DNA of 55,116 nt from IMG/VR virus record IMGVR_UViG_3300017714_003588, positions 1 through 55,116 of that record; one strand, 5' to 3'. The translations under genes and the position numbers were made by a program. Shown here in pieces: positions 24,083 to 47,699 of the stretch (positions are counted from its first letter, which is position 1; the number at the start of each line of letters is the position of its first letter). Origin of the DNA: a virus. A model generated the notes under the pieces. That model was given only the letters and a program-made list of their open reading frames with translations, was not told where the DNA came from and ran no database searches.

Positions 24083-25227
24083 TCTTGGGTACCGTATCTG
24101 ATAATCTTAATTGATTCAGGTACCTCTAACTCGCTTGTGTCATCTCCCCACGGGTCTACTATTATTGAACCATGAGCTACATTATCTATCATGTTTTGAT
24201 TAGGTCCTCGGCTTGCTAAATAAACAGCCGGTGAGCTAAGATACGTATCATACTTTACATCCGGATTGTTAAACATATCCGGCTCTTCTTCTTCTATAAA
24301 AGAACTTACTAACAAAGATGGTGAACCATCTGTTAAATCTGATTCCATTTTAAATCCAAAGTCTAATATGACAATTGGCATTTGAAATGTTTCTAAATAT
24401 TCTGACATACGTTTAGCTTGAAAATCTCTTGCTTCCATTATTGATGCAAACAAATCATACTTTAATTTAACATCTTCAGCTAGTTTTCGTAATGCAATAT
24501 TATCTCTTGGGTGGCATGGACCACCATCTCCAAGTCCTGGTCTCATATATTTTTCTGATGTAATTCTTATATTTGATTTAGCTAATGCATTACATACTAT
24601 ATTAGCATCCATATTACCTATTTCCATAGCAATATCTTGTATCATATTCACAAAAGATATTTTCATAGATATAAATGTATTGTAAAAAACTTTGATACAT
24701 TCAGCTTCTTCAAAGGTACCTGTTTCCCATCTTACTGGTGTTGTAATAATTTCTTGATAGAATGCTATAAGTTCAGCCCTATCACCTGGGTCTCCACCAG
24801 CAATCATCATCTCTGGATTTAAAAAGTCTTCTTTTACTGTACCCATTGCTATTAGGTATGGATTGTAAACTAATCTATATTTTTTTGGTATGTCAATAAG
24901 TTGTTTTCTAAATGTGGTTGGTAATACTGTAGATATAACTGCAACTAAAGCATCTTCTCTTGCATAGTCATTCAAATCAATTAATACATCTTTTAGTATT
25001 TCATAATTAAAGTCTGTAGCTGGTAAATTGTATGTAGGTTTATCACCGCCGTATGCAGGTTGATGAGGTGTCGGAACAGCAACAAAGATTATGTCTGCAT
25101 CTTCGCAAACCTCTTTCATATCAGTGTTGAGTTTGGGGTCGTGCACTTTTACTTCATAGTGTTCCGACATAATTTCTGAGACTGGACCACCTAATTTTCC
25201 TGCACCTATAAAAGCTACTTTAGTCAT
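24070..25227 (-). CDS. UDP-glucose/GDP-mannose 6-dehydrogenase family protein
   Basis: NAD-dependent four-electron oxidation of a nucleotide sugar to the uronic acid. The N-terminal Rossmann motif FIGAGKLGGPV binds NAD, VAVPTPH follows, and the catalytic cysteine is C238 in GDGGPCHPRDN (family consensus GGxCxPxD). FYNTFISMKISFVN matches the central dimerisation helix with its conserved Lys/Asn. 385 residues, slightly short, with a divergent C-terminal domain. With the epimerase at 33 kb it could supply pentoses or uronates. Confidence 0.82.
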   Translation of the reverse strand: MTKVAFIGAGKLGGPVSEIMSEHYEVKVHDPKLNTDMKEVCEDADIIFVAVPTPHQPAYGGDKPTYNLPATDFNYEILKDVLIDLNDYAREDALVAVISTVLPTTFRKQLIDIPKKYRLVYNPYLIAMGTVKEDFLNPEMMIAGGDPGDRAELIAFYQEIITTPVRWETGTFEEAECIKVFYNTFISMKISFVNMIQDIAMEIGNMDANIVCNALAKSNIRITSEKYMRPGLGDGGPCHPRDNIALRKLAEDVKLKYDLFASIMEARDFQAKRMSEYLETFQMPIVILDFGFKMESDLTDGSPSLLVSSFIEEEEPDMFNNPDVKYDTYLSSPAVYLASRGPNQNMIDNVAHGSIIVDPWGDDTSELEVPESIKIIRYGTQECFH

Positions 25228-25377: not shown

Positions 25378-26124
25378 TTATTTGACTAAATCAAAGTGTC
25401 TTTCATAGACATGTAAGTTTTGAACTTGCCATATCATCTGACCAATCTTAAGGTCTTCAATACCGGCATTACTTAGGTCTTCATGCAATCTAGTTTGTAT
25501 TTCTTTTTGCCAAGCATAATCATTACGATAGCCAAAGATAACATCATTGGAACGCATTTGAACAACACAATGTAGTTGGTTATCACGAATATAATATGTC
25601 ACAGCATTAGTACATATAAAATCATTCTTACCATTTTCATCATACTCAACTTGTATACTTGGACGATTGTAAATCATACATGCTCTACGAGAGTCTGGGT
25701 TTGCTTGTAGCTCTTGAAAAACAGAATCATATTGATTGTGATATTTTGTATCAAATATAAGATGACCATAGTTTGAATTGATTTCACCCCATTGATTAGC
25801 TGTAGCTAGCCAAGCGGCTGGTGGAGAATTAACACCATCACCTTCTTTACCAAGTTCACCATAGATGTCATAGACGTTAGTTGACATAGAATCATACCAC
25901 TGTATTTCATAGTCTATATAAGATTGATTGGGTTTACCGAAGATAGCGGGTTCATCAGCTATAAAAGAAGCACCAATTAATTCTATAGTTTTTGAACCAC
26001 TTCTATCAACGGTAAACTTTTCATTAGTAAGTTCACTTATAAAGTGAGACTTTACATCAGAAACTTTAGGGTGTAAATCAGTCTTTGCTAAAGACTTTGC
26101 CGAGAATTCCAGTATTTTCGCCAT
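25378..26124 (-). CDS. 42: dCMP hydroxymethylase (T4 gp42-like)
   Basis: Converts dCMP to 5-hydroxymethyl-dCMP using methylene-tetrahydrofolate, so that cytosine can be replaced or modified in phage DNA. Close match to T4 gp42: IELIGASFIADEPAIFG, GEINSNYGHLIF, NPDSRRACMIYNRPS and MRSNDVIFGYRNDYAWQ. The catalytic cysteine is C171 (DFICTNAV). The base-discriminating residue is Asp (D202 in YRNDYAW), as in T4 Asp179, rather than the Asn of thymidylate synthase; the 31-residue spacing is identical to T4. Start chosen for gggaggcacc about 9 bases upstream; it overlaps the MazG-like gene by 47 bases. Confidence 0.9.
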   Translation of the reverse strand: MAKILEFSAKSLAKTDLHPKVSDVKSHFISELTNEKFTVDRSGSKTIELIGASFIADEPAIFGKPNQSYIDYEIQWYDSMSTNVYDIYGELGKEGDGVNSPPAAWLATANQWGEINSNYGHLIFDTKYHNQYDSVFQELQANPDSRRACMIYNRPSIQVEYDENGKNDFICTNAVTYYIRDNQLHCVVQMRSNDVIFGYRNDYAWQKEIQTRLHEDLSNAGIEDLKIGQMIWQVQNLHVYERHFDLVK

Positions 26125-27724: not shown

Positions 27725-28308
27725 TATTTATGTACCACCTTAATTCTTTTTGGTGGCTGTGGTAGATACTTGTAATCACCAATATGAGAATCATTTTTAT
27801 CTTTACTAGTATCAGGATAACCTACACCTAGTAATGAGATAATATCATTATCAGCATTTAATAAAGTTTTTAAATGACCATCTTGATAACATGCACAATA
27901 GCCAGTTTTTAAACCATTTTGATGTGCAATAAGATTTACATATCCACTTGCTATACCTACTGCCATTTGTTGGTCTCTTTTCACTACATAATTATACTGC
28001 TCTTCATCCATATCTGCATAGAACTTAATATTGTCCTGTTCATATGCTTCAAAAGCGATTACCATGTTAGCAAGCACTTGGTCATTAGGTCTTATGATTC
28101 CTTGCTCATCAAAATAACCCATAGTGTTTGCATGTATTTTTTCAAGCAAGTCTCTATTTTGTATGATATGAACTTTATAGTACGGTAAGTTTTGTTTTGA
28201 AGGTGCACCTATGAGAGCTTCATATATTTCCTCATACACATTTAAAGGTATCTTTTTATCTAGATTCCAGTTTCTCTGAGTTGAGTTGCTTTCACTAATG
28301 ACCGACAT
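27724..28308 (-). CDS. nitroreductase-family flavoprotein
   Basis: FMN-dependent NAD(P)H oxidoreductase fold. YEALIGAPSKQNLPYYKVHI near the N-terminus is the phosphate/FMN-binding segment (S-K-Q-N), and AVGIASGYVNLIAHQNGLKT is the characteristic helix; LLGVGYPD follows. 194 residues, single domain. Possible roles: redox balancing or flavin/nitro-compound reduction during infection. It overlaps kdsA by 14 bases and abuts the primase-like gene. Confidence 0.82.
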   Translation of the reverse strand: MSVISESNSTQRNWNLDKKIPLNVYEEIYEALIGAPSKQNLPYYKVHIIQNRDLLEKIHANTMGYFDEQGIIRPNDQVLANMVIAFEAYEQDNIKFYADMDEEQYNYVVKRDQQMAVGIASGYVNLIAHQNGLKTGYCACYQDGHLKTLLNADNDIISLLGVGYPDTSKDKNDSHIGDYKYLPQPPKRIKVVHK

Positions 28309-29077
28309 TTAAAATTTGTTCTAGTATATTATGATATTGTCCTGGTGTTAACATATTAGGTCCGTCTGATGGTGCTCTATCAGGAGCATCATGTACCTCA
28401 TGAAAAAAACCATCAACACCTACTGCTGCAGCAGCTCTGGATAAAGGTGCTACAAATTCTCTTTTACCTAAACTTTTGCCGTTGCCAGCTCCTGGTTGTT
28501 GAACTGAATGTGTTGCATCAAATATAACTTTGAAATTAGGATTATCATCTTTAAATTGTTTCATATATTCTAATCCTCTAAAGTCTACAACTAGATTATT
28601 ATAACCAAATGTTGTACCTCTTTCAGTAATCCATACTTCACCGTCAGGGTCCATTTTAGAAAGTACACCTGGTACTTCTTCATAAGATAAGAATTGTCCT
28701 TTTTTTATATTCACAGGTAATCCTGTCTTACCAGCTTCTACTAATAAATCAGTTTGCCTACATAAAAATGCTGGTATTTGAATTGCATCAACTACTTCAG
28801 CTATGACTTCAACTTGCCAACATTCATGTACATCAGTAATAATTTTCATAAAAGGATTTTGACGTTTCAATTGTTCAAAATCAGCTAGTGTTTGTTCCAA
28901 TCCAACACCTCTTTTACCTTGTATTGAACTACGATTTGCTTTATCAAAAGATGCTTTAAAATAATGTTCATCTTTTCTTTTTAAGCCAACCATATCTATA
29001 GTTGAAGCTATTTCTTTATACATAAAGTCACTGTGTTCCACTGACTCATGTTGACATGGACCCGAGAGTAAAATCAT
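28295..29077 (-). CDS. kdsA: 3-deoxy-D-manno-octulosonate 8-phosphate synthase
   Basis: Condenses phosphoenolpyruvate with arabinose 5-phosphate to Kdo-8-phosphate, the first committed step of lipopolysaccharide Kdo. LLSGPCQHES (N-terminal), FKASFDKANRSS, GLEQTL, ITDVHECWQ, IPAFLCRQTDLL, RGTTFGYNNLVVD and FDATHSVQQPG are all diagnostic. C8 in SGPC indicates the metal-dependent class (Asn in the E. coli type). 260 residues. It may boost host Kdo or feed a sugar pathway for the nearby glycosyltransferases. Confidence 0.93.
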   Translation of the reverse strand: MILLSGPCQHESVEHSDFMYKEIASTIDMVGLKRKDEHYFKASFDKANRSSIQGKRGVGLEQTLADFEQLKRQNPFMKIITDVHECWQVEVIAEVVDAIQIPAFLCRQTDLLVEAGKTGLPVNIKKGQFLSYEEVPGVLSKMDPDGEVWITERGTTFGYNNLVVDFRGLEYMKQFKDDNPNFKVIFDATHSVQQPGAGNGKSLGKREFVAPLSRAAAAVGVDGFFHEVHDAPDRAPSDGPNMLTPGQYHNILEQILNVGH

Positions 29078-31997: not shown

Positions 31998-32438
31998 TTA
32001 TTCTCCTTTTAAAAATGACAACATATTATCTGCACCAGATACTTTAAATGGGTCACCCTCAAAATTATTGGCTTTACCTTCTTCTTCAAATAACTTTGTT
32101 ATAACACCATCTTGCAAAACAACTGAATATCTCCAAGACCTATCACCAAAACCTATATTAGATTTTGAAACTCTCATATTCATTTTGTCAGTGAATTCTA
32201 GATTTCCGTCTGGTACCATTTTTACTTTACTAATACCTAAGTCTTTTGCCCAAGCATCCATAACAAAAGAATCATTTACTGATACACAGTAAACTTCTCT
32301 TGCACCGGCTTCTATTATTTGATCATATTTTTCTTCATATCCAGGCAGGTGAGTTGAAGAACAGGTAGGTGTGAAAGCACCAGGTAATCCAAAGACGACT
32401 ACTTTGCCTACTTTCATATCGTTAATGTGATTGCTCAT
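31998..32438 (-). CDS. Peroxiredoxin (Prx5 type)
   Basis: Thiol peroxidase. VVVFGLPGAFTPTCSSTHLP has the peroxidatic Cys motif 'P-G-A-F-T-P-x-C-S'; VYCVSVNDSFVMDAWAKD is the conserved Prx5 segment and DRSWRYSVVLQDG the Arg region. 146 residues, slightly short at the N-terminus. Directly followed by glutaredoxin, forming a peroxide-detoxifying pair. Overlaps the epimerase fragment by four bases. Confidence 0.9.
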   Translation of the reverse strand: MSNHINDMKVGKVVVFGLPGAFTPTCSSTHLPGYEEKYDQIIEAGAREVYCVSVNDSFVMDAWAKDLGISKVKMVPDGNLEFTDKMNMRVSKSNIGFGDRSWRYSVVLQDGVITKLFEEEGKANNFEGDPFKVSGADNMLSFLKGE

Positions 32439-32737
32439 AGTTTTTTCCTTTCAGTAATATAATTATACCAGAATTGGCTATTTTTTAACCAATGGTAATA
32501 CAGTCTAAATCCATCATCCACGTCTACACGTGGGGAAAAGTCAAATGCTTTTTTAGCCTTTGTAATATCTAGTGAACCACGACTTGGAAAGTCAGGATGT
32601 TTATCTCCCACTTCAATATAACCTGACTGGGCAAGACTTACGGCAATTTGAGCAGCTCTATATAATGTCCATGAATGACTCTTTGTAAGATTAAAAGTTT
32701 CATTAATTGTTTTATCACTATTAATAATTTGTGCCAT
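32435..32737 (-). pseudogene. C-terminal part of NAD-dependent epimerase, beyond an in-frame amber stop
   Basis: The 100 residues from the first ATG after the stop, and also the 22 codons before it, continue the extended-SDR epimerase frame. LDFTYVGDVAKGMAQI is the standard 'D-x-x-Y-V-x-D-V-A' substrate-domain segment, and KHPDFPSRGSLDITKAKK the 'D-x-x-K-A' end. It is in the same frame as the upstream fragment, separated only by TAG at 32804-32806. Whether it is made by internal start, readthrough or not at all is unknown. Confidence 0.7.
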
Positions 32738-32803
32738 ACCTTTTGCTACATCTCCTACATAAGTAAAATCTAACTTTTCATTCTCACCATTTACTTTGAG
32801 AGT

Positions 32804-33415
32804 CTAATTACACATAGCCTTAATTAAAAATATACTTATGACTCTATCTTTAACATCTAATTCACCATAAATTGCTGATGGTCTTACAATTGTATAATCC
32901 AGCCCACTGTCTTTTACTAAGTGTTCACATGCTAGTTTGGCTATTGCGTAAGTACCTTGCGGTTTACAAATGGCAGATTCTTTTTGACCATCATCAAATT
33001 CTCCATATACCATACTACTAGATGCTAATACAATTCTTTTAACATTATGTCTTTTACAGGATTCAATTACATTAATTGTTCCACCTATAATTACTTGAGA
33101 TGCTAGTTGTGGATTTTTATTTACAACTGCTTGTCTTGGATATGAAGCTAAGTGTATCACTATATCAGGTTTTTCTTTTACTAATACAGCATCAAAATCA
33201 TGAGAACATATATCAACATTGTAATCTTTTACATGACCTATTACAGCTTTTCTAGCTCTATAAGTATACTCCATTTCATTTTCAGGTATGACACCATAGT
33301 CATTATAGTTATCAACTACAACTACTTCATGTTTAACATCACTGTCAGACATTAGCTCAGCACAAACCCTATGACCAACTAGACCATATCCACCTGTGAT
33401 AAGTACCTTAGCCAA
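32804..33415 (-). CDS. N-terminal part of NAD-dependent epimerase/dehydratase (amber-truncated)
   Basis: Extended SDR nucleotide-sugar epimerase/dehydratase. ITGGYGLVGHRV binds NAD, ASSSMVYGE carries the catalytic Ser/Thr, TYAIAKLACEHL is the Y-x-x-x-K pair, and VRPSAIYGELD follows. TTG start after ctggaggag. The product stops at a TAG after KAMCN, 203 residues in, although the frame continues as good epimerase sequence. With a UDP-sugar dehydrogenase at 24 kb, the intact enzyme could have made a xylose/arabinose-type or galacturonate-type nucleotide sugar. Confidence 0.8.
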   Translation of the reverse strand: MAKVLITGGYGLVGHRVCAELMSDSDVKHEVVVVDNYNDYGVIPENEMEYTYRARKAVIGHVKDYNVDICSHDFDAVLVKEKPDIVIHLASYPRQAVVNKNPQLASQVIIGGTINVIESCKRHNVKRIVLASSSMVYGEFDDGQKESAICKPQGTYAIAKLACEHLVKDSGLDYTIVRPSAIYGELDVKDRVISIFLIKAMCN

Positions 33416-34607
33416 AGAACTCCTCCAGTGAAGTATTAGATTGGTAATCTAATTTTTGTGCTTTATTATTTTGAAGTAAAAAATTTGTATCAAGCATTCT
33501 ATTATCTAGTCTTCCCTCAAGGAATGCTTTTACACCTCTTGCTGCATGTTCAGCTGTTGTGACAGGTACATTTTGACATATATGATTAAGTGACCTTTTA
33601 GGATTCAACAATTGAAAGTCTTCTGGCATTCTCATCATAGATAAAGCTTCTCTTACATATAAGTATCTATCTTCATCTGGGTGTGTAAGTGAACTTGGCA
33701 TATGACCTACAAAAGCACCAATGTAATCTTTAGGTATCTCAGTAGTTTTTCTCATTATATTACCACCTGACTTTAACTTTTCATACATACGTTCACATTT
33801 TTTTGATTCACCTTCATAACCATTCTTCTTCATCCATTCACCAACTACTTTATAGTTAGTATGTTTTTCAATATGGTCTAAAGGATTAGTAGATTTTTCT
33901 ATTTTATCTTGAAATTCTGAATGTGTAATACCACCTTCAAGTTCTTCTAAACAATACTTATAAAATGGATTGCCAGTTGGTTTTCTTTCATTTGTAAGTA
34001 TAGTACTCATTGGATCAGCAGGACATAACTTAACATTACGTATTGCATCCTCTATTTTTTCATGTGGTTCATGAATCCAATCTATAACAGGTACTTTATC
34101 ACCTTTCCAAAAGAAATAAAATGTTCTATCTCTTACTTGACTTAATCCATGCAATATAGATTTTGTTTGATAGATACTAAATGTATAACCATACTTATCA
34201 GCCATTTTTCTTAATTCAGCTACTACAGGTCTACCCATTTTAGATGCTAACCTCGGTGCATTCTCTCCCCACAAAACATCTGGTTGCATAGTACTTAAAA
34301 CATAATCAGTAGATTTTTTCATCCAATCATTATTATGATTCTCACTACTTGCTTGTGGTGACAATGATGATAAACCAGCACATGGACATACAGTATTTAC
34401 TACATTCACTTTACTAGGTTTAGGATTACCTTCATCTAAAATATGATATGGTACTTCATTATTATAATGGTTAAGCAAATGTTCTTCATTAGCTTGGAAA
34501 CCTGAATAACTCATAATATGTTCAGGTCTTTTACCAAAAACATTTTCCATTGCTATTGTTTCACCGCCTATAAGAGGCACAATACTTGCATAAGTAAAAT
34601 TATCCAA
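33408..34607 (-). CDS. DNA C5-cytosine methyltransferase family enzyme
   Basis: Dcm-family fold. IVPLIGGETIAMENV is motif I (SAM binding), VCPCAGLSS motif IV with the catalytic Cys (P-C), GENAPRL motif VI (E-N-V position), and QVRDRTFYFF motif VIII. NVPVTTAEHAARGVKAFL is motif X. Start placed at TTG 34607, preceded by ggagg and matching the family N-terminus; an ATG 30 bases upstream lacks a ribosome site. In a hydroxymethylcytosine context it could methylate residual cytosine or act in base hypermodification. C-terminus SLEEFFG. Confidence 0.85.
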   Translation of the reverse strand: MDNFTYASIVPLIGGETIAMENVFGKRPEHIMSYSGFQANEEHLLNHYNNEVPYHILDEGNPKPSKVNVVNTVCPCAGLSSLSPQASSENHNNDWMKKSTDYVLSTMQPDVLWGENAPRLASKMGRPVVAELRKMADKYGYTFSIYQTKSILHGLSQVRDRTFYFFWKGDKVPVIDWIHEPHEKIEDAIRNVKLCPADPMSTILTNERKPTGNPFYKYCLEELEGGITHSEFQDKIEKSTNPLDHIEKHTNYKVVGEWMKKNGYEGESKKCERMYEKLKSGGNIMRKTTEIPKDYIGAFVGHMPSSLTHPDEDRYLYVREALSMMRMPEDFQLLNPKRSLNHICQNVPVTTAEHAARGVKAFLEGRLDNRMLDTNFLLQNNKAQKLDYQSNTSLEEFFG

Positions 34608-35607
34608 AGAAACCCTCCAAACTTTGTGACATTGCATCTGATTCTACACCATTCCAATGTGGATAGTATTCTCTGCTTAAATGTATTGACTTAGGTTTTT
34701 CCATACAATCAAAATCTAATTCACCTTTACTATTTAGTAATTTATCAGTCCATCTAATAATACTATATTTGCTATCAATATAATCATTAAATTCATTTCT
34801 TGCATCAGTTCTTTCTTGCCATGTACCCCAGAATGGTTGTCCTTTATAATAACCTGATTGTGGTAATTTTCTAGATTCATTTTCAATAGGCAACAATTCA
34901 TATATCTTTGCATCTAATTGTTTTGCTTGTTCAATATATCTATCAGCTAATTCTTTTACATCAATATCCATTCTACAAATATGATGTCTTATATCAATAT
35001 TGCCAAAGTATAATTCTATTTCATTATAGTTTAAACCTTCATCTGGAATGTAATTAGCTATTCCCTCATTTAATATACCATTGAGTGTTTTAAATGGTAT
35101 ACTTTTTATAGTCCATCCAGGTCTATACATACAAATAGAATGTGAATCACCTATAACTAATTTGTTAGTTTGATTTGGATGTATTATAGTTTCAGCTTCT
35201 TTATGCATTCTTTCTAAATTATCTAAATCTACATTTGCCCATTCTGGTTGTGGGTCTTTTTTAGCTTTAGATAATTTATCTTTAATCCATTCATGGTAAG
35301 GTGGAAAATCAATAGCAATAGATTTTATCTTCCCTTTGAACTTAGAAAAGTTAACAGTGTTTTGTACATAAGGAAACCCATATACACCACCAAACATATT
35401 TAGTCCTCCACTAAAATCATTACCATGATATACCCACATTGTGTCATAATCATTATGTTCTTGTATTTCACCACCGTAGTTTACATCACACTGTCCATAA
35501 GCTTGTTTAATCATGTCACCATACATAACACCTTGAGCACCTCTATGAGATGCTATTCTTTTTGCCACAGGAATAAATGGGCAATTAAGTATATTACCAG
35601 CCTCCAT
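34600..35607 (-). CDS. SGNH-like conserved phage protein
   Basis: About 335 residues. KLVIGDSHSICMYRPGW resembles the 'G-D-S-H' block of SGNH/GDSL-type hydrolases, and ELYFGNIDIRHHICRMD is a second conserved block where the family keeps 'F-G-x-I-D-x-R-x-H'. Similar proteins occur in marine phages without known function. Start ATG 35607 (GTG three bases upstream is equivalent). Ends SLEGFFG, nearly the same as its downstream neighbour. It lies between the hypermodification-like helical protein and the cytosine methyltransferase. Confidence 0.6.
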   Translation of the reverse strand: MEAGNILNCPFIPVAKRIASHRGAQGVMYGDMIKQAYGQCDVNYGGEIQEHNDYDTMWVYHGNDFSGGLNMFGGVYGFPYVQNTVNFSKFKGKIKSIAIDFPPYHEWIKDKLSKAKKDPQPEWANVDLDNLERMHKEAETIIHPNQTNKLVIGDSHSICMYRPGWTIKSIPFKTLNGILNEGIANYIPDEGLNYNEIELYFGNIDIRHHICRMDIDVKELADRYIEQAKQLDAKIYELLPIENESRKLPQSGYYKGQPFWGTWQERTDARNEFNDYIDSKYSIIRWTDKLLNSKGELDFDCMEKPKSIHLSREYYPHWNGVESDAMSQSLEGFFG

Positions 35608-35716
35608 CACCCTTACCTTTATTTTTTTTCTTCCAATGTAATCTACCAGATAGTCCTAAAATACAAAAACTAAAACAGCCAAGAATAATTAATAATACAA
35701 AGAAAAAGTCTATCAT
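35594..35716 (-). CDS. 40-residue membrane microprotein
   Basis: Encodes MIDFFFVLLIILGCFSFCIL then a basic tail LHWKKKNKGKGDGGW. One membrane span, positive-inside tail. Overlaps the preceding gene (four bases) and the following one (14 bases). Confidence 0.55.
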   Translation of the reverse strand: MIDFFFVLLIILGCFSFCILGLSGRLHWKKKNKGKGDGGW

Positions 35717-36774
35717 ACAAAAGCCTCTAATGTTGGTTTATTCATTTCTTTGTTTAAATTTTCTGCTATGGTTTCAAAACTATCAAATGTTAATGGTACA
35801 ATTCTTTTTTGTTGTGCTCTTTCATTATCTTTTATACTAAGAAATACATTAAACTGACAAAAAGTAATTTCTGTACCAAAGGTAGTTAAATTGCCACCAC
35901 GCTCTAAATTGTTTCTATAATAATCATGTTCAGTATCATTTTTAAATTCAAAAAATTCATGTTGATTATCTCTTACAGCTAAAATATATTCTTCCATAAT
36001 ATCATTGTTGCTAAATTTTACATCTGGAAATACAAATTCTAAACCTCTTTTTGCACCTGGCCCTACTAAACAATACTCATCATCTTCATCAATACATGGT
36101 AATTCATCAGCTCTACTAAAATTGCATGGTGGATGATAAGAAAAATATGGACCAATACCTCTATGCTGTTTTAAGTGTTCACAAACAGTACCAAGTGTAG
36201 ATTGTTGGTCTGTCACAGTCCTAGATAAACCAAGTCTATCTAAATGACACATCCAGTCAATCATATCTGATAATTGAAACTTTTTCTCAGGGTTATTGTA
36301 TGTTCTTCTACAATAATTTCTTGCTGCAGTTTGTAATGATGTTTGTAGTTGTGTTGAACCCCACACAGCTAGTTTATGTTTATTTTCATTTAGATTTTTT
36401 TGTATGAAAAGTCTGTATATTGTTTCTTTTTCATATCTATCAAAGTCTATAATATTACTATAATCAGCTGAATTACTAGCAACTAATGTAAGTGTTGGCA
36501 TACCTACAAATTTAACTGCCATTGCATTTAGTATTTTGTTTCTAAGACTAATATCATCTCTACCAAACACATAGTTCTCTAACCAATGTACTTCAGCATG
36601 TTTAGACCTATTAGGATTCCAATACTTTACTTCTTCTCTCATTGCAACATGGCTGGGTGTATAATCATTTAGGTCACCAAAGTCTCTTAGGTATTCTCTT
36701 TTAAAGAACTCTTTGACCCACTCATTAAATATTAGAAAGTTATTTTCGTTTCTTTTTTCTAATAGTTTATTCAT
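35713..36774 (-). CDS. HMUDK-helical/aGPT-Pplase-like protein (DNA base hypermodification candidate)
   Basis: 353 residues. HRGIGPYFSYHPPCNFSR followed by EYCLVGPGAKRGLEFVF resembles the 'G-x-G-P-F-x-x-Y ... V-G-P-G-A-x-x-G' core of the helical, DNA-glycosylase-related family that includes alpha-glutamyl/putrescinyl-thymine pyrophosphorylases and the helical domain of hydroxymethyluracil DNA kinases. Those enzymes act on hydroxymethylated bases in phage DNA. Neighbouring myo-inositol-phosphate synthase, HAD phosphatase and C5-methyltransferase genes fit a modification operon. Assignment is by motif only. Confidence 0.55.
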   Translation of the reverse strand: MNKLLEKRNENNFLIFNEWVKEFFKREYLRDFGDLNDYTPSHVAMREEVKYWNPNRSKHAEVHWLENYVFGRDDISLRNKILNAMAVKFVGMPTLTLVASNSADYSNIIDFDRYEKETIYRLFIQKNLNENKHKLAVWGSTQLQTSLQTAARNYCRRTYNNPEKKFQLSDMIDWMCHLDRLGLSRTVTDQQSTLGTVCEHLKQHRGIGPYFSYHPPCNFSRADELPCIDEDDEYCLVGPGAKRGLEFVFPDVKFSNNDIMEEYILAVRDNQHEFFEFKNDTEHDYYRNNLERGGNLTTFGTEITFCQFNVFLSIKDNERAQQKRIVPLTFDSFETIAENLNKEMNKPTLEAFV

Positions 36775-37147
36775 AAGGATGTATACCGTCTTGTCTTACC
36801 AAGTGTACAATATGTAATTCAGGATGTTCTTTTTTAATTTCTTTGATTTGTATTTCATCATCTTCAAAATGCATACCAATATCATAACCTTGTTTCTTTA
36901 ACATTGTAATCATTTTTGCTTTGAACCTTCCACTAGCTTCACGGCCGTACTCAGGGTCATCTTTTCGCAAGTCATTCATAAATAACATATTATTTATGCC
37001 GCGGGCATGAAGCATTTTTTCAGTAGCTTCTCTTTCACTATGTACAGACCTACCTGTAATAATAATATCATTTGCACACGGCCGTACACCCGTGTACGTA
37101 TCACCAAAGTCTATAACACCATCAATATCAAAAGTATTAATTTTCAT
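36767..37147 (-). CDS. HAD-superfamily phosphatase-like protein
   Basis: 126 residues. FDIDGVIDFGDTY is HAD motif I, IIITGRSVHSEREAT motif II, FKAKMITMLKKQG carries the Lys, and HFEDDEIQIKEIK motif IV. No cap domain. It is overlapped by the inositol-phosphate synthase gene (11 bases), so it may dephosphorylate the product to inositol; alternatively it acts on a nucleotide. Overlaps the next gene by 8 bases. Confidence 0.75.
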   Translation of the reverse strand: MKINTFDIDGVIDFGDTYTGVRPCANDIIITGRSVHSEREATEKMLHARGINNMLFMNDLRKDDPEYGREASGRFKAKMITMLKKQGYDIGMHFEDDEIQIKEIKKEHPELHIVHLVRQDGIHPYE

Positions 37148-38435
37148 AATCAGTCTTTCCAGCTTGAAATGTATGTGGTAAGTCTTTTGCTTTAGGTCTA
37201 TTATCTTTTATTTGAGCTGTAGTCATTTCAGTAAATTTTCTTTCTGCTAAAGCATCACATTCAGCTTTTGCAACATCAGTTTTTAATTGTACTGGTGGAG
37301 ATTTCTGTGTCCATGCACTTGGACCTCTTAGATAACCAACAATACCCATTTCATTAGCAACTCTACAGAACCTAATGGCTGATACTACAACACCACCAGA
37401 GTTTGGACTATCTTGAACTGATAACCTAGCTGACATTTCATACCTTGCACCACCAAATCCATAAGCAACTATATCAAAGTTTGCTATCTTATTATCTGAT
37501 GGAATGTATTCACCACCTGGTTTTTGTTGTACTGTTAAAGATGGACCAGCAAATAGTGTCATACCTGCTGTTGTTTCATCCCTTACAATATTCTGACCTT
37601 TTAAAACATTTTCTTTAGAAATATGTTTAGATTTTAATCTATCTTGTTTAGCCATATTCAAAAAGTCTGTATTTGCTGTACGTCCCGTACGTATAGTTTC
37701 TTGACCTTGTGTAGAACCAGCTGCCATATTCATTTGAATGTGTTGTGTGACCTGTAAACCAGAATCAAGCATTGCACCTTGTAATACTTCTGACATACGA
37801 GATGCTCCCCAAGCTGAACGCATATCACTTCCAACAATTGTTAAACCTGCATCTATAAATCTTTGTTCAGTTGCCATAGCTTCTTCAGTAGATATTAATG
37901 TAGGTATACAATTAACAAAATTAACACCTGCATCTAATGCAACATCAATCCAATATTTTGTAGCATCTTCAGAACCCACTGGTAAATAATTAATAAGAAC
38001 ATCTACATCATGATACTTTATTAACTCTACAGTTCTTTCAAATGATTCTGCTGGTATTGCACCATTTACAAATGTGACTTCATCAGGATAATCATGCATG
38101 TGAGGTGCTATCCCATCTAGTTCTGGTGCTGAATAAACCATTGCTTTAGATTTTACACAACTAGAATTACTATCACCATTTGTATAAATTGAACTAACAT
38201 GATTCATTGAACAATTTGGTGCAGCTCTTAAAGCTTCAGCTAATGGTTTGTTTACTTTTCTTACATCAATATCAAATCCTAAGACAAATTCGATATCTTT
38301 AGTTCCATATCCACCGATATCTTCGTACATAAGACCGACTTTATCTTCTGGATTTTCGTTGTAGTATTGAATGCCTTCAACTAGGCTTTTGGCACAGGAA
38401 CCAATTCCAATGATTCCTACTTTTATTTTTGACAT
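37137..38435 (-). CDS. myo-inositol-1-phosphate synthase
   Basis: NAD-dependent cyclisation of glucose 6-phosphate to inositol phosphate. VGIIGIGSCAKSLVEGIQYY binds NAD; VLGFDIDVRKVNKPL, VGSDMRSAWGASRMSEVLQG (the 'G-D-D-x-K-S-x-x-G-A-T' region) and RLSVQDSPNSGGVVVSAIRF are hallmark MIPS segments. 432 residues, full length for the prokaryotic type. Its product could feed an inositol-based DNA modification, phosphatidylinositol or osmolyte synthesis. The leader contains a hairpin switch candidate. Confidence 0.88.
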   Translation of the reverse strand: MSKIKVGIIGIGSCAKSLVEGIQYYNENPEDKVGLMYEDIGGYGTKDIEFVLGFDIDVRKVNKPLAEALRAAPNCSMNHVSSIYTNGDSNSSCVKSKAMVYSAPELDGIAPHMHDYPDEVTFVNGAIPAESFERTVELIKYHDVDVLINYLPVGSEDATKYWIDVALDAGVNFVNCIPTLISTEEAMATEQRFIDAGLTIVGSDMRSAWGASRMSEVLQGAMLDSGLQVTQHIQMNMAAGSTQGQETIRTGRTANTDFLNMAKQDRLKSKHISKENVLKGQNIVRDETTAGMTLFAGPSLTVQQKPGGEYIPSDNKIANFDIVAYGFGGARYEMSARLSVQDSPNSGGVVVSAIRFCRVANEMGIVGYLRGPSAWTQKSPPVQLKTDVAKAECDALAERKFTEMTTAQIKDNRPKAKDLPHTFQAGKTDYEN

Positions 38436-41413: not shown

Positions 41414-41923
41414 ATGAAAGCACATCTTATAAACAGTGTGCTGCGAACTTGGGTTGTTATGTTATTTGCGGTGACGTTGGCAGCCCTCTCAACAATTTCC
41501 TCAGCTAGTGAGCTTAACTTTCAGTTTGGCAATCCAGCATTTTCAAAGCAAGGCTACTCGTCCCATGTCTTATCTATTGAGCAACTTAATTACTCACGTA
41601 AAAGAGATGTTGATAAAGACCAAAAGTCAGCCGATGCTTCTGCTCAGAGAGAAATTGATAACACAACAATTAATAAGTTCATTAAGAATGTTGAATCACG
41701 TATTTATGCTAATTTATCTAAACAATTAGTTGATAATATGTTTGGTACAAATTGTATCAACACATCTGAAATAACATGTGAAACTTCTGGTACTGCTTTA
41801 GTAGAAGGAGCCACAATATACTGGGTAAGAGATGATACAACAGAAACTATTAGTTTGACAGTCACAGATGAGACCGGAAATGTCACAACGATCACCGTGC
41901 CCATTGGAGACTTTCTATTCTAA
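41414..41923 (+). CDS. csgF: CsgF-like curli assembly protein
   Basis: Accessory subunit that caps the CsgG pore and couples secretion to fibre nucleation. A signal peptide of about 32 residues (VVMLFAVTLAALSTISSAS) precedes the mature N-terminus ELNFQFGNPAFSKQ, the CsgF signature that inserts into the CsgG channel. The C-terminal part GATIYWVRDDTTETISLTVT, then ETGNVTTITVP, matches the CsgF beta domain. 169 residues, a little longer than E. coli CsgF (138), with two Cys (NCINTSEITCE) likely disulphide-bonded. First gene of the operon csgF-csgG-curlin-fecR-curlin2-cyclase. Confidence 0.88.
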   Translation: MKAHLINSVLRTWVVMLFAVTLAALSTISSASELNFQFGNPAFSKQGYSSHVLSIEQLNYSRKRDVDKDQKSADASAQREIDNTTINKFIKNVESRIYANLSKQLVDNMFGTNCINTSEITCETSGTALVEGATIYWVRDDTTETISLTVTDETGNVTTITVPIGDFLF

Positions 41924-41942
41924 TAGAAAAAAATGAACTTAT

Positions 41943-42764
41943 ATGAAGACACTCTTAGCATTAATATTGACTATAGTTATCACAGGATGCGTCAGCACAC
42001 CTGATAAAATAGACTATTATAAAGACCTGCCACCTCAGCAGCATGCTACACCCACATCAGAATTATTAGTAAACTTACCAGCATTAGATGGTGAAGTTAT
42101 TACTATTGCAGTGTATTCATTTTTAGACGAAACAGGACAAAGAAAACCTAGTGATAAATTTTCACAGCTATCAACAGCAATATCACAAGGTGTGGATGTG
42201 TGGGTAATACAAGCTTTAAAAGAAGCAGGAGATGGTACTTGGTTTAAGGTTGTTGAAAGAATGGGATTGGATAATGTAATAAAAGAAAGACAACTTATAA
42301 GAAGTACAAGAGAAGCATATGATGGAAATGATGCTAACAAGAATTCACTTAAACCTTTAATATTTGCAGGCTTAATATTAGAAGGTGGTGTTGTTGCTTA
42401 TGATACTAATATAGAATCAGGCGGCAACGGTGCAAGATACTTTGGCATTGGAATATCTGAAGAATATCGGGTAGACCAAGTCACTGTCGCTATGAGAGTA
42501 GTTGCTGTTCAGACTGGAGAAGTTTTACTTACCGTTTCAGGTACTAAAACTATAGCTAGTCATCGTTCAGGAACTGATGTTTTTAGATTCTTAGACATGG
42601 GAACTAAGGCTTTAGAAATAGAAAGCGGTGTTGCAATGAATGAGCCAGTAAATTACGCAATACGATCCGCAATAGAGTATTGCGTAATTGAAGTAATCAA
42701 ACAAGGAACAGACCAAGGTCTGTGGAAAATGAAGGAGGATAAAAACGATGAAACAATTCATTAA
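41943..42764 (+). CDS. csgG: CsgG-like curli secretion channel lipoprotein
   Basis: Outer-membrane nonameric pore of type VIII secretion. A lipoprotein signal with lipobox VITGC (C16) is followed by typical CsgG segments: ITIAVYSFLDETGQRKPSD, TAISQGVDVWVIQALKEAG, FKVVERMGLDNVIKERQLIR and VAVQTGEVLLTVSGTKTI. 273 residues matches E. coli CsgG (277). Hydrophobic/transmembrane hairpin regions around GISEEYRVDQVTVAM are present. No CsgE-like gate gene is visible. Expression from a phage could give fibre export or simply a large outer-membrane hole. Confidence 0.92.
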   Translation: MKTLLALILTIVITGCVSTPDKIDYYKDLPPQQHATPTSELLVNLPALDGEVITIAVYSFLDETGQRKPSDKFSQLSTAISQGVDVWVIQALKEAGDGTWFKVVERMGLDNVIKERQLIRSTREAYDGNDANKNSLKPLIFAGLILEGGVVAYDTNIESGGNGARYFGIGISEEYRVDQVTVAMRVVAVQTGEVLLTVSGTKTIASHRSGTDVFRFLDMGTKALEIESGVAMNEPVNYAIRSAIEYCVIEVIKQGTDQGLWKMKEDKNDETIH

Positions 42765-43434
42765 CCTTATATTATTATCTATCTTGTTTACAGGTACATT
42801 ATGGGCGAATGATATTTACGTCACACAAAGTGGTAATACACTTGACTTAGATATTACTCAAGATGGACAAAACAATACTGTTGGTAATTCTACCACATCA
42901 TCATCAGTTGTAGGTGCTACATCTACTATTGATATTGACCAGGTAGGAAACTCTAACGTCCTTACATTTGATGTTAACGGTGCTACATACACTGGAACAT
43001 TTAATGTCACGGGTGGTAGCAACAATATTGACTTTAACTGTGATAGCACTGGGAACAATTCCTCATGTGCAACAGTCACATCTAGCATAACAATGGTGGG
43101 TTCCAGTAACGATTTAGATATCGATATTGGTCAGACTGCTGATGCTGCAAACGGTGGAGTGACTATAACTGGAGCCAGTGGTTCTGATTCAAACGTTATA
43201 GCCGCTACTGTTGATGGTACATCTGCAATCTTAACATTATCTGTAAATGGAGATACAAATAACTGGTTGATTGATATAGATGGAAATGGAGATATTAATG
43301 GCCATACATTAATCCATTCTCATACCGGCGGTACAGCTGATGTAGATATAGTTCAAAGTGGTATTAATGATGCCATTATAAACTTGACTACTATTGGTAA
43401 TGGCCACGATATCGATATAAGTCAAACAGACTAA
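42748..43434 (+). CDS. Curlin-repeat amyloid-like secreted protein 1
   Basis: 228 residues with a 20-residue signal peptide (LILLSILFTGTLWA) and a mature chain of degenerate curlin repeats: YVTQSGNTLDLDITQDGQNN, IDIDQVGNSNVL, LDIDIGQTADA, VDIVQSGINDAI and a final HDIDISQTD. The alternating 'S/D-x-x-x-Q-x-G-x-x-N' pattern is that of CsgA/CsgB strands. No aromatic-rich domain. It overlaps csgG by 17 bases with aaggagg upstream. The substrate of the CsgG/CsgF exporter by context. Confidence 0.82.
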   Translation: MKQFINLILLSILFTGTLWANDIYVTQSGNTLDLDITQDGQNNTVGNSTTSSSVVGATSTIDIDQVGNSNVLTFDVNGATYTGTFNVTGGSNNIDFNCDSTGNNSSCATVTSSITMVGSSNDLDIDIGQTADAANGGVTITGASGSDSNVIAATVDGTSAILTLSVNGDTNNWLIDIDGNGDINGHTLIHSHTGGTADVDIVQSGINDAIINLTTIGNGHDIDISQTD

Positions 43435-44561
43435 TGCGTGCTCTAATAAGAGTTATTGCCTTTTTAATAGGTATTGTGTTTTTACTTTTTTATGGTAAAG
43501 AAGTATATGGACAATCTATAGGAGATGTAATTCTCCAAGAAGGCAATGCTGTTATAGAACAAAGTGGTGAAGAGAATATATCAATCGAAGGATTAAATGT
43601 ATTTTCTTATGATGTCGTTAAGACAGGGAATGGTAAAACAGCTATATCCTTTATTGACGACACTCGCGTAGATGTCACAGAACATTCAAAACTTATAATT
43701 GATGAGTTTGTATATGACCCAGCTAATAACATGGGTTCTCTCTCTATTAAAGCGACATTAGGTACCGTGCGTTATGCATCAGGGCAAATTGCTAAGAACT
43801 ATGCTCAAAATGTAAACATTGAAACACCAACTGCCACCATAGGTGTAAGAGGTACTGATTTTACTATGACTGTAGATGAGATTGGTGGTTCAACAATAAT
43901 CCTATTACCGTCATGCGATACAAAGGGTTATTGTTATGTAGGAGAAATTGAAGTTGAAACAGATGCTGGTTTTGTAATAATGAATCAAGCTTTTCAAGCA
44001 ACTGTAGTCACAACTGGTGAAGCAAAACCAATGAAGCCAGTTATTTTAGATTTAGATGAAAATATGATTGGCAATTTATTGATAATACAGAAACCTCAAG
44101 AAATTGTAGACCAACAAGAAAAAGCTGAATATAATGAAGTTGCAAATGCTTTAGATATAGACTTTTTAGAATTTAATGATTTAGAAGTAGATGAATTAGA
44201 AATAGACAATGATACCTGGACAACAGGTTTAGATATAGATTTTTTAGAACAAAATTTTTTAGTAGATGTATTAGCACAAATTAATAAAGAACTTGCTAAA
44301 GCTATGAGAAGTGAGTTTACAAAACAAGAAGAAGCTTCCATTGATGGTATAAGATTAGGTAAAGACCCTGAAACAGGTATTATAATTTTAGATGAAGACC
44401 CGGACTGGGTATATGCAAGAGAAGGTGCATCAACATATTTTGAATTAAGACTTGATAAAGAGTATGGTTATATTATAAGTTTTACACAAGAAGATTTTGA
44501 AGTATATGACTTTGAATTGGGAGGACAAGGAAATGAGATTCGCATTTATCAAAGTAATTAG
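43434..44561 (+). CDS. FecR-domain secreted protein
   Basis: 375 residues with a signal peptide/anchor (VIAFLIGIVFLLFYGKEVYG). The FecR domain spans about 30-190: VFSYDVVKTGNGKTAISFID, then SLSIKATLGTVRYASGQI and IETPTATIGVRGTDFTM, the classic 'T-P-x-A-x-I-G-V-R-G-T' motif. The C-terminal half is acidic with 'L-D-I-D-F-L' repeats. In bacteria, FecR proteins are often encoded next to CHASE2-cyclase genes, as here. Perhaps an envelope sensor or anchoring protein. One-base overlap with the curlin gene. Confidence 0.85.
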   Translation: MRALIRVIAFLIGIVFLLFYGKEVYGQSIGDVILQEGNAVIEQSGEENISIEGLNVFSYDVVKTGNGKTAISFIDDTRVDVTEHSKLIIDEFVYDPANNMGSLSIKATLGTVRYASGQIAKNYAQNVNIETPTATIGVRGTDFTMTVDEIGGSTIILLPSCDTKGYCYVGEIEVETDAGFVIMNQAFQATVVTTGEAKPMKPVILDLDENMIGNLLIIQKPQEIVDQQEKAEYNEVANALDIDFLEFNDLEVDELEIDNDTWTTGLDIDFLEQNFLVDVLAQINKELAKAMRSEFTKQEEASIDGIRLGKDPETGIIILDEDPDWVYAREGASTYFELRLDKEYGYIISFTQEDFEVYDFELGGQGNEIRIYQSN

Positions 44562-45849
44562 TGTTTTATTTCTTGTTCTTTTAATTAATGAAAAGGCAGA
44601 AGCTGGTTCATTAAACTATGAGGTGTTTGCTATTAGTCATTATGCACCTTATGTAGAAGCACCTTGTTATAATAACTATACATATCTGTCTACCTGTAAT
44701 AATACTAATCCAGCTTATGTAGGTACATCACAAGGAACTGGTACTATTGACAGTTTAAATTATAACTGGAATAGTGGAAACATAGTTCTTCATAATAATA
44801 ATTATGGTGGTAATCAGAGAATGGTAGTTATTACCGGTTATTGGCAACATCCAGGAACCACAGGTCAAACATCTACAGTATATTTTGCTGGTCGTAATGA
44901 TGATGGCCTTATTGTCAACATCAATAATACTAAAGTAATATCTGACTGGGCTCAACAAGGTCCAAGATATTGGAACTCTAATGGTTCATTTTCTGGTGTA
45001 GGTGGACAATGGTACCCAATACAAATTAACTGGTATGAATGGACAGGTTCTGCCAATATGGATATTCATTATAGTTTATCTAATTTAAGTTTAAACTCTA
45101 CAAGTGGTTGGTTAGATATGAATAGTGATCATTTTGCTTTAACTCTATCAGTTCTATCAGGCATTACATCATCACAACAAACAACAGTCACAAATACAAA
45201 GAATACTACAAGCACTACAAATAGTATCTATGTCACACAAAGTGGCAGTGGTATTGATTTAGATATTTTACAAGATGGTGATAATAATGCAGTGATAGGT
45301 ACTAACTTATCAGCCGCTAGTGTAATTACTGGTGATAATATAGATTTAGATATTGCGCAATATGGTAATAACAATATACTTGGTATTGACGTAAATGGTA
45401 ATTCAAATGACATAGATATATGGCAAAATCAAAATCAAAGAGCAATTGTGGATATTGTTGGTACATCTAATACTTTAAGTTTAAAACAAGAACATCTAAA
45501 CAATAATGGTGAACACTTTGCAGACATAGATATAGATGGTAATAATAACGTATTAAGTTTATGGCAAAAAGAAACTGGTGATAAAATACTCTTCATAGAT
45601 ATTGGCAATAGTAATAATGTCACAACATTGCAACAAGGTACAGGAAATCACTTTTTAGACATCAACTTAGGAGATAGTCATACAGTTAATGTAAATCAAG
45701 ATGGCTCAGGTAGTCACAATGCATACTTAAATTTAACTGGTAATAGTTCATCACTTACATTAACACAAGATAGTTCAACAGCACAGAATTATCACTTAGA
45801 CCAGAATTGTACTAACCCAAGTTGTTCAGCAACGGTGACACAGAACTAA
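44533..45849 (+). CDS. PA14-like domain plus curlin repeats (secreted)
   Basis: About 438 residues from ATG 44533 (gggaggacaagga upstream). Signal peptide (VISVLFLVLLINEKAEAG), then an aromatic N-terminal domain with VYFAGRNDDGLIVNINNTKV, the 'R-x-D-D-G' motif of PA14/GLEYA-type sugar-binding domains. From about residue 225 come curlin repeats beginning IYVTQSGSGIDLDILQDGDN, nearly the same as the first repeat of the 42748 protein. It looks like an adhesin tip or CsgB-like nucleator with a binding domain. Overlaps the FecR gene by 29 bases. Confidence 0.78.
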   Translation: MRFAFIKVISVLFLVLLINEKAEAGSLNYEVFAISHYAPYVEAPCYNNYTYLSTCNNTNPAYVGTSQGTGTIDSLNYNWNSGNIVLHNNNYGGNQRMVVITGYWQHPGTTGQTSTVYFAGRNDDGLIVNINNTKVISDWAQQGPRYWNSNGSFSGVGGQWYPIQINWYEWTGSANMDIHYSLSNLSLNSTSGWLDMNSDHFALTLSVLSGITSSQQTTVTNTKNTTSTTNSIYVTQSGSGIDLDILQDGDNNAVIGTNLSAASVITGDNIDLDIAQYGNNNILGIDVNGNSNDIDIWQNQNQRAIVDIVGTSNTLSLKQEHLNNNGEHFADIDIDGNNNVLSLWQKETGDKILFIDIGNSNNVTTLQQGTGNHFLDINLGDSHTVNVNQDGSGSHNAYLNLTGNSSSLTLTQDSSTAQNYHLDQNCTNPSCSATVTQN

Positions 45850-47699
45850 TGATAAAAATATTTACACATTGGACAATAGCATTTCTTACATTGGCAGCAA
45901 TTACGTTTTATGGTTGGCAAGACCCATATTTAAAAGAAGTATTAAGGTTGAAAGGTTTTGATACAATTATAAATTCACAAGAAAAAACTTATTCAAAAGA
46001 TATTGTTATTGTAGAGATAGATGAAAAAGCTATAGAAAAATATGGGCAATATCCTTTCAATAGAGAAATATATTCTGAACTTATAATAAAGTTAAGGCAA
46101 GCAAATGCTGGTATGATATTATTCCCTATGTTATTTTCTGAAAATGATAGACAAGGTGGAGACTTAATATTTTCTGAAGCATTACAATATGGTACAGTAA
46201 TAGCACAAGTTGGTACAAATCAAACTAATAAAAATGCGGTACCTAGAGGAATAGCTAAAATCGGTGACCCTTTACCTTTCTTATTTTCATGGGGCGGAAT
46301 GTTAGGTCCTATACCTGAACTAGAAGCAAATGGTGTTGGTGTTATTAATACAGCACCAGAAATAGATGGATTAGTTAGAAGATTACCTTTACTAATGAGA
46401 GTTGGTGATGATGTATTTCCAGCAATGGCAATTGAAACTATAAGAGCTATTACAGGTGACCCATCTTATCAAGTTAAAGCTGATGCAAATGGTATCATTG
46501 CTGTAAGAGTTCCTGGTTTTGCTACAATAAAAACTGATAGGAATGCTAGAATTTGGATTAATCATAATAAGACATTTGATAGTATCTCAATCGCAGATGA
46601 TGATTTAGAATTTGCATTAACAGAAGGTAAAACAGTAATTGTATCTTTAACTGCAGAAGGTTTGTCACCATTAGTTGCTACATCTGCAGGTGAACAATAT
46701 AATCATTATATTATTGCATCAAGTTTACAAACAATTATTGATGGTACTCATATTAAAAGAGATGATACTAGTTTTTTAATTGAAATGATTTTATGTGTTT
46801 TAATAGCAGCATTATTAATTGCAATTGTAAGAATAGCACCGTACTGGCTAATAGGTTTATTTACAATTGGTGTTTATATTGGTAGTGTTTACTTTGTAGT
46901 GTTTATGTTCAATCAATCACTTACGTTATATGATATTAGTTGGTTTATAATTACATTCACTATTGTTGCAATGCATTCTATATTCAATAGGTTCATATTA
47001 GAATTTAATTTAAAACAACAAATAAGAAAACAATTTGAAAAGTATTTAGACCCAAGGCAAGTAGCTATACTACAGAAAAATCCTGATAAAATAAAATTAG
47101 GTGGTGATAGAAAAGATATGAGTTTCTTATTTATGGACATTGTAGGATTTACACCTATTTCTGAACATTACAAAAATAATGATGACCCGGAAGGATTAGT
47201 CAAAGTAATAAATGATTACTTAGATAGAATGACTAAAATTGTTTTAAAGAATGGTGGTACAATAGACAAATATATGGGTGATTGTATTATGGCATTTTGG
47301 AATGCACCACTTGATTGTGACAATCATGCTGAAATGGCAGTAAAAACAGCTATTGAATGTGCACAAGAAACTGAAGAGATTAAAAAAGAATTTAAAGCAA
47401 AAGGTTTACCAGAAATTAATATAGGTAGTGGAGTAAATTCAGGTACTTGTATTGTTGGTAATATGGGTAGTGAAATGAGATTAGATTATTCTGTAATAGG
47501 TGATGCTGTTAACTTAGCAGCTAGACTAGAAGCACAAACAAGAAATTACAAAGATGACAACGGTAATGTAATACCATTATTATACTCACAATATACTAAA
47601 AGCTTATTAAGTAATATTGACTCTATCGAAGTGGATAAAATAAAAGTAAAAGGTAAAGAAGAGCTTATAACAATTTATAAGCCCTCCCTTATAAGTTAG
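45849..47699 (+). CDS. CHASE2-domain class III adenylate cyclase
   Basis: 616 residues: N-terminal span, periplasmic CHASE2 sensor (about 40-305, DIVIVEIDEKAIEKYGQYPF and GVGVINTAPEIDGLVRRLPL), three membrane segments (about 310-385), then a cyclase domain. Catalytic residues are intact: metal-binding D430 (MDIVGFT) and D478 (YMGDCIMAF), adenine-selecting K474 and D546, and transition-state N555/R559 (GDAVNLAARLE). It should make cAMP in response to an envelope signal. Start overlaps the curlin-2 stop (TAATG). Its stop overlaps the gp32 stop on the opposite strand. Confidence 0.9.
   Translation: MIKIFTHWTIAFLTLAAITFYGWQDPYLKEVLRLKGFDTIINSQEKTYSKDIVIVEIDEKAIEKYGQYPFNREIYSELIIKLRQANAGMILFPMLFSENDRQGGDLIFSEALQYGTVIAQVGTNQTNKNAVPRGIAKIGDPLPFLFSWGGMLGPIPELEANGVGVINTAPEIDGLVRRLPLLMRVGDDVFPAMAIETIRAITGDPSYQVKADANGIIAVRVPGFATIKTDRNARIWINHNKTFDSISIADDDLEFALTEGKTVIVSLTAEGLSPLVATSAGEQYNHYIIASSLQTIIDGTHIKRDDTSFLIEMILCVLIAALLIAIVRIAPYWLIGLFTIGVYIGSVYFVVFMFNQSLTLYDISWFIITFTIVAMHSIFNRFILEFNLKQQIRKQFEKYLDPRQVAILQKNPDKIKLGGDRKDMSFLFMDIVGFTPISEHYKNNDDPEGLVKVINDYLDRMTKIVLKNGGTIDKYMGDCIMAFWNAPLDCDNHAEMAVKTAIECAQETEEIKKEFKAKGLPEINIGSGVNSGTCIVGNMGSEMRLDYSVIGDAVNLAARLEAQTRNYKDDNGNVIPLLYSQYTKSLLSNIDSIEVDKIKVKGKEELITIYKPSLIS

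Follow-up and report, generated by a model that had tools for sequence, protein, structure and literature searches.

The window analysed here, i.e. the full 55,116 bases of IMG/VR virus record IMGVR_UViG_3300017714_003588, appears to belong to a T4-like marine phage, and its minus strand carries an operon led by a gene for a myo-inositol-phosphate synthase (MIPS), an enzyme whose genes adjoin DNA base-modification genes in all 72 viral loci surveyed. The probable function of the operon is to produce free myo-inositol and to link it to hydroxymethylcytosine (hmC) in the phage DNA, a predicted chemistry. The genes under study are the following:

37137–38435, minus strand: MIPS (Ino1-like), 432 amino acids, ATG start with AAAGGAG in front
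36767–37147, minus strand: capless HAD phosphatase, 126 amino acids, overlapping the MIPS gene by 11 bases
35713–36774, minus strand: HMUDK_hel (PF18723) protein, 353 amino acids, overlapping the HAD gene by 8 bases
34600–35607, minus strand: SGNH/GDSL-fold protein, after a gap of 105 bases behind HMUDK_hel
33408–34607 (TTG start, preferred) or 33408–34637 (ATG start, possible), minus strand: C5-cytosine-methyltransferase-like (C5MT-like) protein with a PF00145 match
25378–26124, minus strand: dCMP hydroxymethylase, T4 gp42 orthologue by its match to PDB 1b49 (1.1e-65)

The preliminary description had placed MIPS, HAD and a "GPGA" protein, here the HMUDK_hel protein, in one unit spanning 35713–38435, with overlaps of 8 to 11 bases and with an SGNH-like and a cytosine methyltransferase gene downstream. 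The open reading frame coordinates give exactly such overlaps, and both downstream genes were located on the same strand; the span itself stands for MIPS, HAD and HMUDK_hel but is too narrow, as the SGNH and C5MT-like genes also belong to the functional unit. In most relatives this unit also holds a dCMP hydroxymethylase and a dCMP deaminase, the hydroxymethylase gene lying inside the operon there and separate from it in the window. As to the start of the C5MT-like protein, GGAGG precedes TTG 34607, which would bring the gene into an 8-base overlap with the SGNH gene, and on the sequence this start appears more likely than ATG 34637.

The association of MIPS with base modification was followed through neighbourhood surveys. 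Among 80 IMG/VR loci fetched with MIPS, most share one gene order on one strand (hydroxymethylase, dCMP deaminase, a small membrane protein, MIPS, HAD, HMUDK_hel, SGNH and C5MT), and because this order recurs in nearly every locus fetched, it is not a matter of chance. Removal of repeat fetches left 72 non-identical viral MIPS flanked on each side by 3.5 kb or more, in a sample grown from three query MIPS (more distant viral MIPS may differ). Base-modification genes adjoin MIPS in 72/72 of these loci, in three settings: HMUDK_hel with SGNH (57/72), TET/JBP with an ADDT transferase (10/72, a P-loop kinase being present in nine of the ten) and 7-deazaguanine genes (5/72). No lipid or osmolyte setting was seen in the 72 loci, which is the opposite of the outcome, MIPS confined to lipid or osmolyte neighbourhoods, that the preliminary description had named as the one to overturn its proposal. 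More distant MIPS, fetched with the proteins of the Stenotrophomonas phage IME-SM1 and the Caulobacter phage Cr30, bring in the two other settings, one with TET/JBP, ADDT, HAD and a P-loop kinase, and one, again with HAD as partner, with QueE, FolE, DpdA and QueC.

A second search, led by HMUDK_hel and therefore independent of MIPS as a query, returned 35 loci flanked by 4 kb or more on either side; MIPS and HAD lie within 6 kb in 34 of these, and SGNH is present in 35/35. This linkage holds despite varying gene order and HMUDK_hel identities down to about 28%, and after clustering at 70% identity it is retained in 18 of 19 HMUDK_hel groups; the single locus without MIPS and HAD is that of the Aeromonas phage 44RR (see below). 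In the same locus table, SGNH accompanies HMUDK_hel without exception, and both the kinase and TET/JBP are missing from all HMUDK_hel loci; in the ADDT loci, by contrast, SGNH does not occur, TET/JBP is present throughout and the kinase is there in almost every case. What the three unrelated base chemistries have in common is solely the pair of MIPS and HAD. In INPHARED, MIPS occurs in just 18 records (16 Stenotrophomonas phages and two Cr30 records), the same 18 in which HAD is found, and in both examples whose annotation was read, Cr30 and IME-SM1, MIPS lies in a base-modification setting.

These two cultured phages illustrate the other chemistries. Cr30 carries TET/JBP, ADDT, a TAGT-like protein (scoring below the Pfam cut-off), MIPS, HAD and a P-loop protein within 9 kb, and its gene at 9706–11034 (locus L082), annotated as a putative SNF2 repair protein, is matched at 5.5e-137 by the TET/JBP profile built here. 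In IME-SM1, FolE, MIPS, HAD, QueC, a DpdA-like protein and QueE follow in a row. The kinase of the TET/ADDT relatives passes the Pfam Ploopntkinase3 profile and matches the front of phrog_800, a family labelled terminase small subunit, the front of which resembles P-loop base kinases and the rear, weakly (E 0.022), the window HMUDK_hel protein; from these likenesses phrog_800 is probably a 5-hydroxymethyl-deoxyuridine (5-hmdU) DNA kinase family. By analogy with known thymine hypermodification, the ADDT lineage would thus have a complete route.

The Aeromonas phages show how the inositol genes may be exchanged. In 44RR, a SGNH-HMUDK_hel fusion of 795 residues directly follows an SSF symporter; the fusion is a feature of 44RR-type Aeromonas phages and corresponds to phrog_17781. 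The symporter and HMUDK_hel co-occur in the same 19 Aeromonas phage records. In a further 21 records, of the phage 25 type, SGNH is present but HMUDK_hel is missing, and a glycosyltransferase-like gene is carried in its stead; in phage 25 itself (L085, 5752–7933), a phage with gene 42, a UDP-galactopyranose mutase and the glycosyltransferase-like gene stand beside SGNH, a gene content that suggests galactofuranosyl-hmC. In 44RR and phage 25 the two versions of the locus both lie between motA and nrdC.10, and the simplest reading is a single hmC-decoration locus with exchangeable donors. Gene 42 without a glucosyltransferase was reported for 44RR, 31 and 25, and the addition of some other group in phages of this kind was left as an open question (Petrov et al. 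2010, PMC2993671).

The probable source of hmC in the window is the thymidylate-synthase homologue at 25378–26124. The match of this protein to T4 dCMP hydroxymethylase (PDB 1b49) stands against values of 1e-10 or weaker for thymidylate synthases, and the diagnostic Asp that replaces the pyrimidine-reading Asn of thymidylate synthase is present in RNDYAWQ and conserved in all relatives in which this stretch is readable; by these marks the protein is a dCMP hydroxymethylase of the T4 gp42 type. The T4 alpha- and beta-glucosyltransferases gave no match above the cut-off in nine records, some of them fragments, and TET/JBP gave no match in the window.

The MIPS assignment is supported by a PF01658 score of 39.9 bits (cut-off 27) and by a match to Mycobacterium tuberculosis Ino1 (PDB 1gr0) at 1.6e-54 and 188 bits, and lysines 270, 274, 316 and 378 are invariant in an alignment of seven phage MIPS. 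The GGN nucleotide-site motif before the DF..M stretch is absent from the window protein and is kept in the MIPS of Cr30 and IME-SM1; in the marine clade the alignment shows ANTDF at this place. As for HAD, motifs I–IV (DxDG, T, K and EDD) are all kept in ten aligned relatives, the invariant residues being D7, D9, T31, K76, D96 and D97, and the protein would be an inositol-phosphate phosphatase; a sequence search of the PDB with the HAD alignment gave no useful match.

The window HMUDK_hel protein passes PF18723 at 36.5 bits (cut-off 25), while the ADDT profile PF18724, matched by the Cr30-type protein, was not reported for it. Its AlphaFold (AF2) model, with a predicted local distance difference test (pLDDT) score of 83.9, is helical throughout from its start and shows no P-loop kinase domain. 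The top match in both structure searches is 8z2n (Z 9.7, root-mean-square deviation 4.3, 236 residues; Foldseek E 0.18, i.e. weak), followed by DNA glycosylases and a queuine salvage enzyme. 8z2n is PUGT, the 5-phosphomethyl-dU glycinyltransferase of phage PaMx11, which joins glycine to 5-phosphomethyl-dU in DNA. The HMUDK_hel protein belongs to the aGPT-Pplase superfamily, with a DNA-glycosylase-like fold, and we infer that it acts as an inositol:DNA transferase. In a scan of bacterial genomes with HMUDK_hel, three contigs proved to carry an operon of the phage type, and a single bacterial locus was found that lacks MIPS. In Crocinitomix algicola (L269, 7779–8810) a lone HMUDK_hel gene without MIPS adjoins an XRE-like regulator and is possibly a defence gene.

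In the SGNH protein S155 and H309 are invariant and N203 nearly so among 20 relatives, and the model (pLDDT 87.9) has the GDSL esterase/acyltransferase fold with Ser, Asn and His in place, resembling platelet-activating-factor acetylhydrolase and sialate esterase with Z about 12; a PDB sequence search with the SGNH alignment gave no useful match. Two loci (L263 and L265) have SGNH without MIPS beside three unknown proteins; judged by eye, two of these are similar to base-modification transferases and one to a pyridoxal-phosphate (PLP)-fold protein, and the L265 set gave no Pfam match. The C5MT-like protein scores 45.6 bits against PF00145, its match beginning only at profile position 64, and its S-adenosylmethionine (AdoMet) motif I (FxGxG) has diverged to PLIGGE; the catalytic PC, ENAP and QxRxR motifs are kept, with C86, E125, R169 and R171 invariant in eight relatives. 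That this protein couples hmC to inositol without AdoMet was considered and set aside, since several loci, that of 44RR among them, lack the gene and since ether formation without coupling would be energetically unfavourable.

In the proposed pathway, the gp42-type enzyme, by orthology, would supply hydroxymethyl-dCMP and hence hmC in DNA, and MIPS, as expected from its family, would convert glucose-6-phosphate into inositol-3-phosphate, from which HAD would strip the phosphate to leave free inositol, a role suggested by its constant pairing with MIPS and by the replacement in 44RR. The hmC would need prior activation, for which a P-loop kinase can serve by phosphorylation in the TET/ADDT relatives; in the window lineage the SGNH protein, which is always present, may supply an activating or partner step, and it is a guess that it replaces the kinase step. 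The HMUDK_hel protein, considering its fold and linkage, would flip the modified base out and join an inositol hydroxyl to the 5-methylene carbon, and the FkbM methyltransferases or glycosyltransferases of some relatives may then decorate the inositol. The purpose would be to shield the DNA from host nucleases in place of the glucose of T4. The preliminary description had left inositol or its phosphate as the group used by the downstream enzymes: inositol is supported, by the linkage in 72/72 and 34/35 loci, and the phosphate appears unlikely, because a phosphatase accompanies MIPS and a sugar-type symporter replaces both in 44RR, two findings that favour free inositol as substrate. With somewhat less confidence, we also hold it likely that MIPS and HAD form a portable cassette, so that inositol on DNA bases would be widespread in phages and combined with three chemistries (gp42-type hmC, TET/JBP and 7-deazaguanine), with import by the symporter as the alternative in Aeromonas phages.

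Several points weigh against inositol on hmC. Ploopntkinase3 gave no match in the window, in 44RR or in the other window-type records tested, so that hmC activation is left with no candidate kinase; AAA_33 matches in two genomes (G001 and G002) were considered for this role and rejected as clamp-loader ATPases, and for both reasons no hmC kinase is claimed. The likeness in fold between the HMUDK_hel protein and 8z2n, at Z 9.7 and 8% identity, does not prove activity. SGNH is also found without inositol genes (the phage 25 type, L263 and L265), thus its step would not be inositol-specific and its target would be a feature common to hmC phages. For the symporter of 44RR the nearest match is vSGLT, which transports galactose and glucose with sodium, and that the 44RR protein carries inositol is deduced from its linkage to HMUDK_hel. 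Finally, the marine phage MIPS clade has an insert of 15 residues in place of GGN (window residues ~236–257), and because of this insert the product of these enzymes could differ.

This last point belongs to the alternative to which we give most weight, unlikely as it is, namely that another cyclitol than plain myo-inositol is placed on the DNA, either as a different MIPS product or as an O-methyl- or glycosyl-inositol. A MIPS homologue making a five-membered cyclitol phosphate (6k96) does exist and matches the window protein at 96 bits, and several operons contain inserted genes for FkbM methyltransferases and glycosyltransferases; the score of Ino1, however, is double that of the five-membered-ring enzyme, the MIPS of Cr30 and IME-SM1 occupy modification clusters too while keeping GGN, and most operons, including that of the window, have no such tailoring genes. 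It is quite improbable that inositol phosphate is the group transferred, with HAD working elsewhere, e.g. in base dephosphorylation or DNA-end repair: HAD is weakly and distantly related to phrog_415, the polynucleotide 3'-phosphatase domain of the polynucleotide kinase (PNK) phosphatase, but it tracks MIPS, even beside 7-deazaguanine genes, rather than any one base chemistry, and the sugar-type symporter of 44RR stands in for both. A similarly low chance is given to an HMUDK_hel protein that transfers an amino acid, as in thymine hypermodification, the inositol then serving another enzyme such as SGNH. The fold relative of known activity is an amino-acid transferase, but these operons showed no recognisable amino-acid-tailoring gene (e.g. 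for a PLP enzyme), and HMUDK_hel tracks MIPS or SSF whereas SGNH also occurs without them. Auxiliary metabolic genes are numerous in marine phages, and the products of cellular MIPS serve lipids and osmolytes, but a MIPS that feeds host inositol lipids or osmolytes and stands near modification genes solely through early-gene clustering is very improbable, and a lipid or osmolyte role was rejected on gene neighbourhoods, with 0/72 loci outside a modification context, a linkage that survives gene-order shuffling and divergence, and a pair of genes that alone is shared by the three chemistries.

Inositol on hmC would resemble several known systems. As in T4, hmC from dCMP hydroxymethylase would, once in DNA, receive a six-carbon polyol or sugar, the differences being the supply by MIPS and HAD and a putative transferase with a DNA-glycosylase-like fold in place of the T4 alpha- and beta-glucosyltransferases. 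RB69, with arabinosyl-hmC, is likewise a T4-like hmC phage with a group other than glucose; its gene set includes a PNK-phosphatase-like gene (PMC8056088), but its group is a pentose, presumably from UDP-arabinose, and the available part of that account makes no mention of MIPS or HMUDK_hel. Thymine hypermodification in ViI, M6 and PaMx11, in which a 5-hmdU DNA kinase is followed by amino-acid transfer by ADDT/PUGT, shares the superfamily of HMUDK_hel and ADDT/PUGT and, in the TET/ADDT relatives, a P-loop kinase related to phrog_800. It differs in that MIPS and HAD are present here with no PLP or amino-acid genes recognised, and in that the window base would be hmC and not hydroxymethyluracil (hmU), with no kinase found. 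In TET/JBP phage clusters, too, a hydroxymethyl base is made in DNA and then modified further (relatives L289, L300, L302 and Cr30), in their case with the inositol gene pair inside the cluster. Clusters for 7-deazaguanine modification (DpdA, QueC and QueE) hold MIPS and HAD in IME-SM1, Moby, L287 and L308, although this is a purine chemistry and was not seen in the window.

No literature report of inositol on phage DNA was found, although an earlier prediction is possible in the base-modification survey of Iyer et al. 2013, and the chemistry of this hypermodification appears to be new. If true, a cyclitol would join sugars, amino acids and deazaguanines among the groups known on DNA, inositol on DNA would give host defence enzymes a new barrier to overcome or a new target, and the gap noted in 2010, an hmC enzyme without a glucosyltransferase in the Aeromonas phages 44RR and 31 (PMC2993671), would be explained. 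A likely role is also offered for the orphan MIPS, HAD, SGNH and HMUDK_hel genes of marine phages, together with a definite prediction for four phages in culture (44RR, 31, Cr30 and IME-SM1).

Other genes of the window may be mentioned. At 32435–33415, an NAD-epimerase gene is interrupted by a single in-frame TAG (KAMCN*TLKVNG), its two halves sharing one frame, for which damage, sequencing error or recoding are possible. The plus strand at 41414–47699 encodes proteins that by eye, from the sequence, are CsgF-, CsgG-, curlin-repeat-, FecR- and CHASE2/adenylate-cyclase-like; curli genes are on record in pelagiphages (PMC9599517). Lastly, a UDP-glucose-dehydrogenase-like gene lies at 24070–25227 and a DAHP/KDO-8-phosphate-synthase-like gene at 28295–29077.

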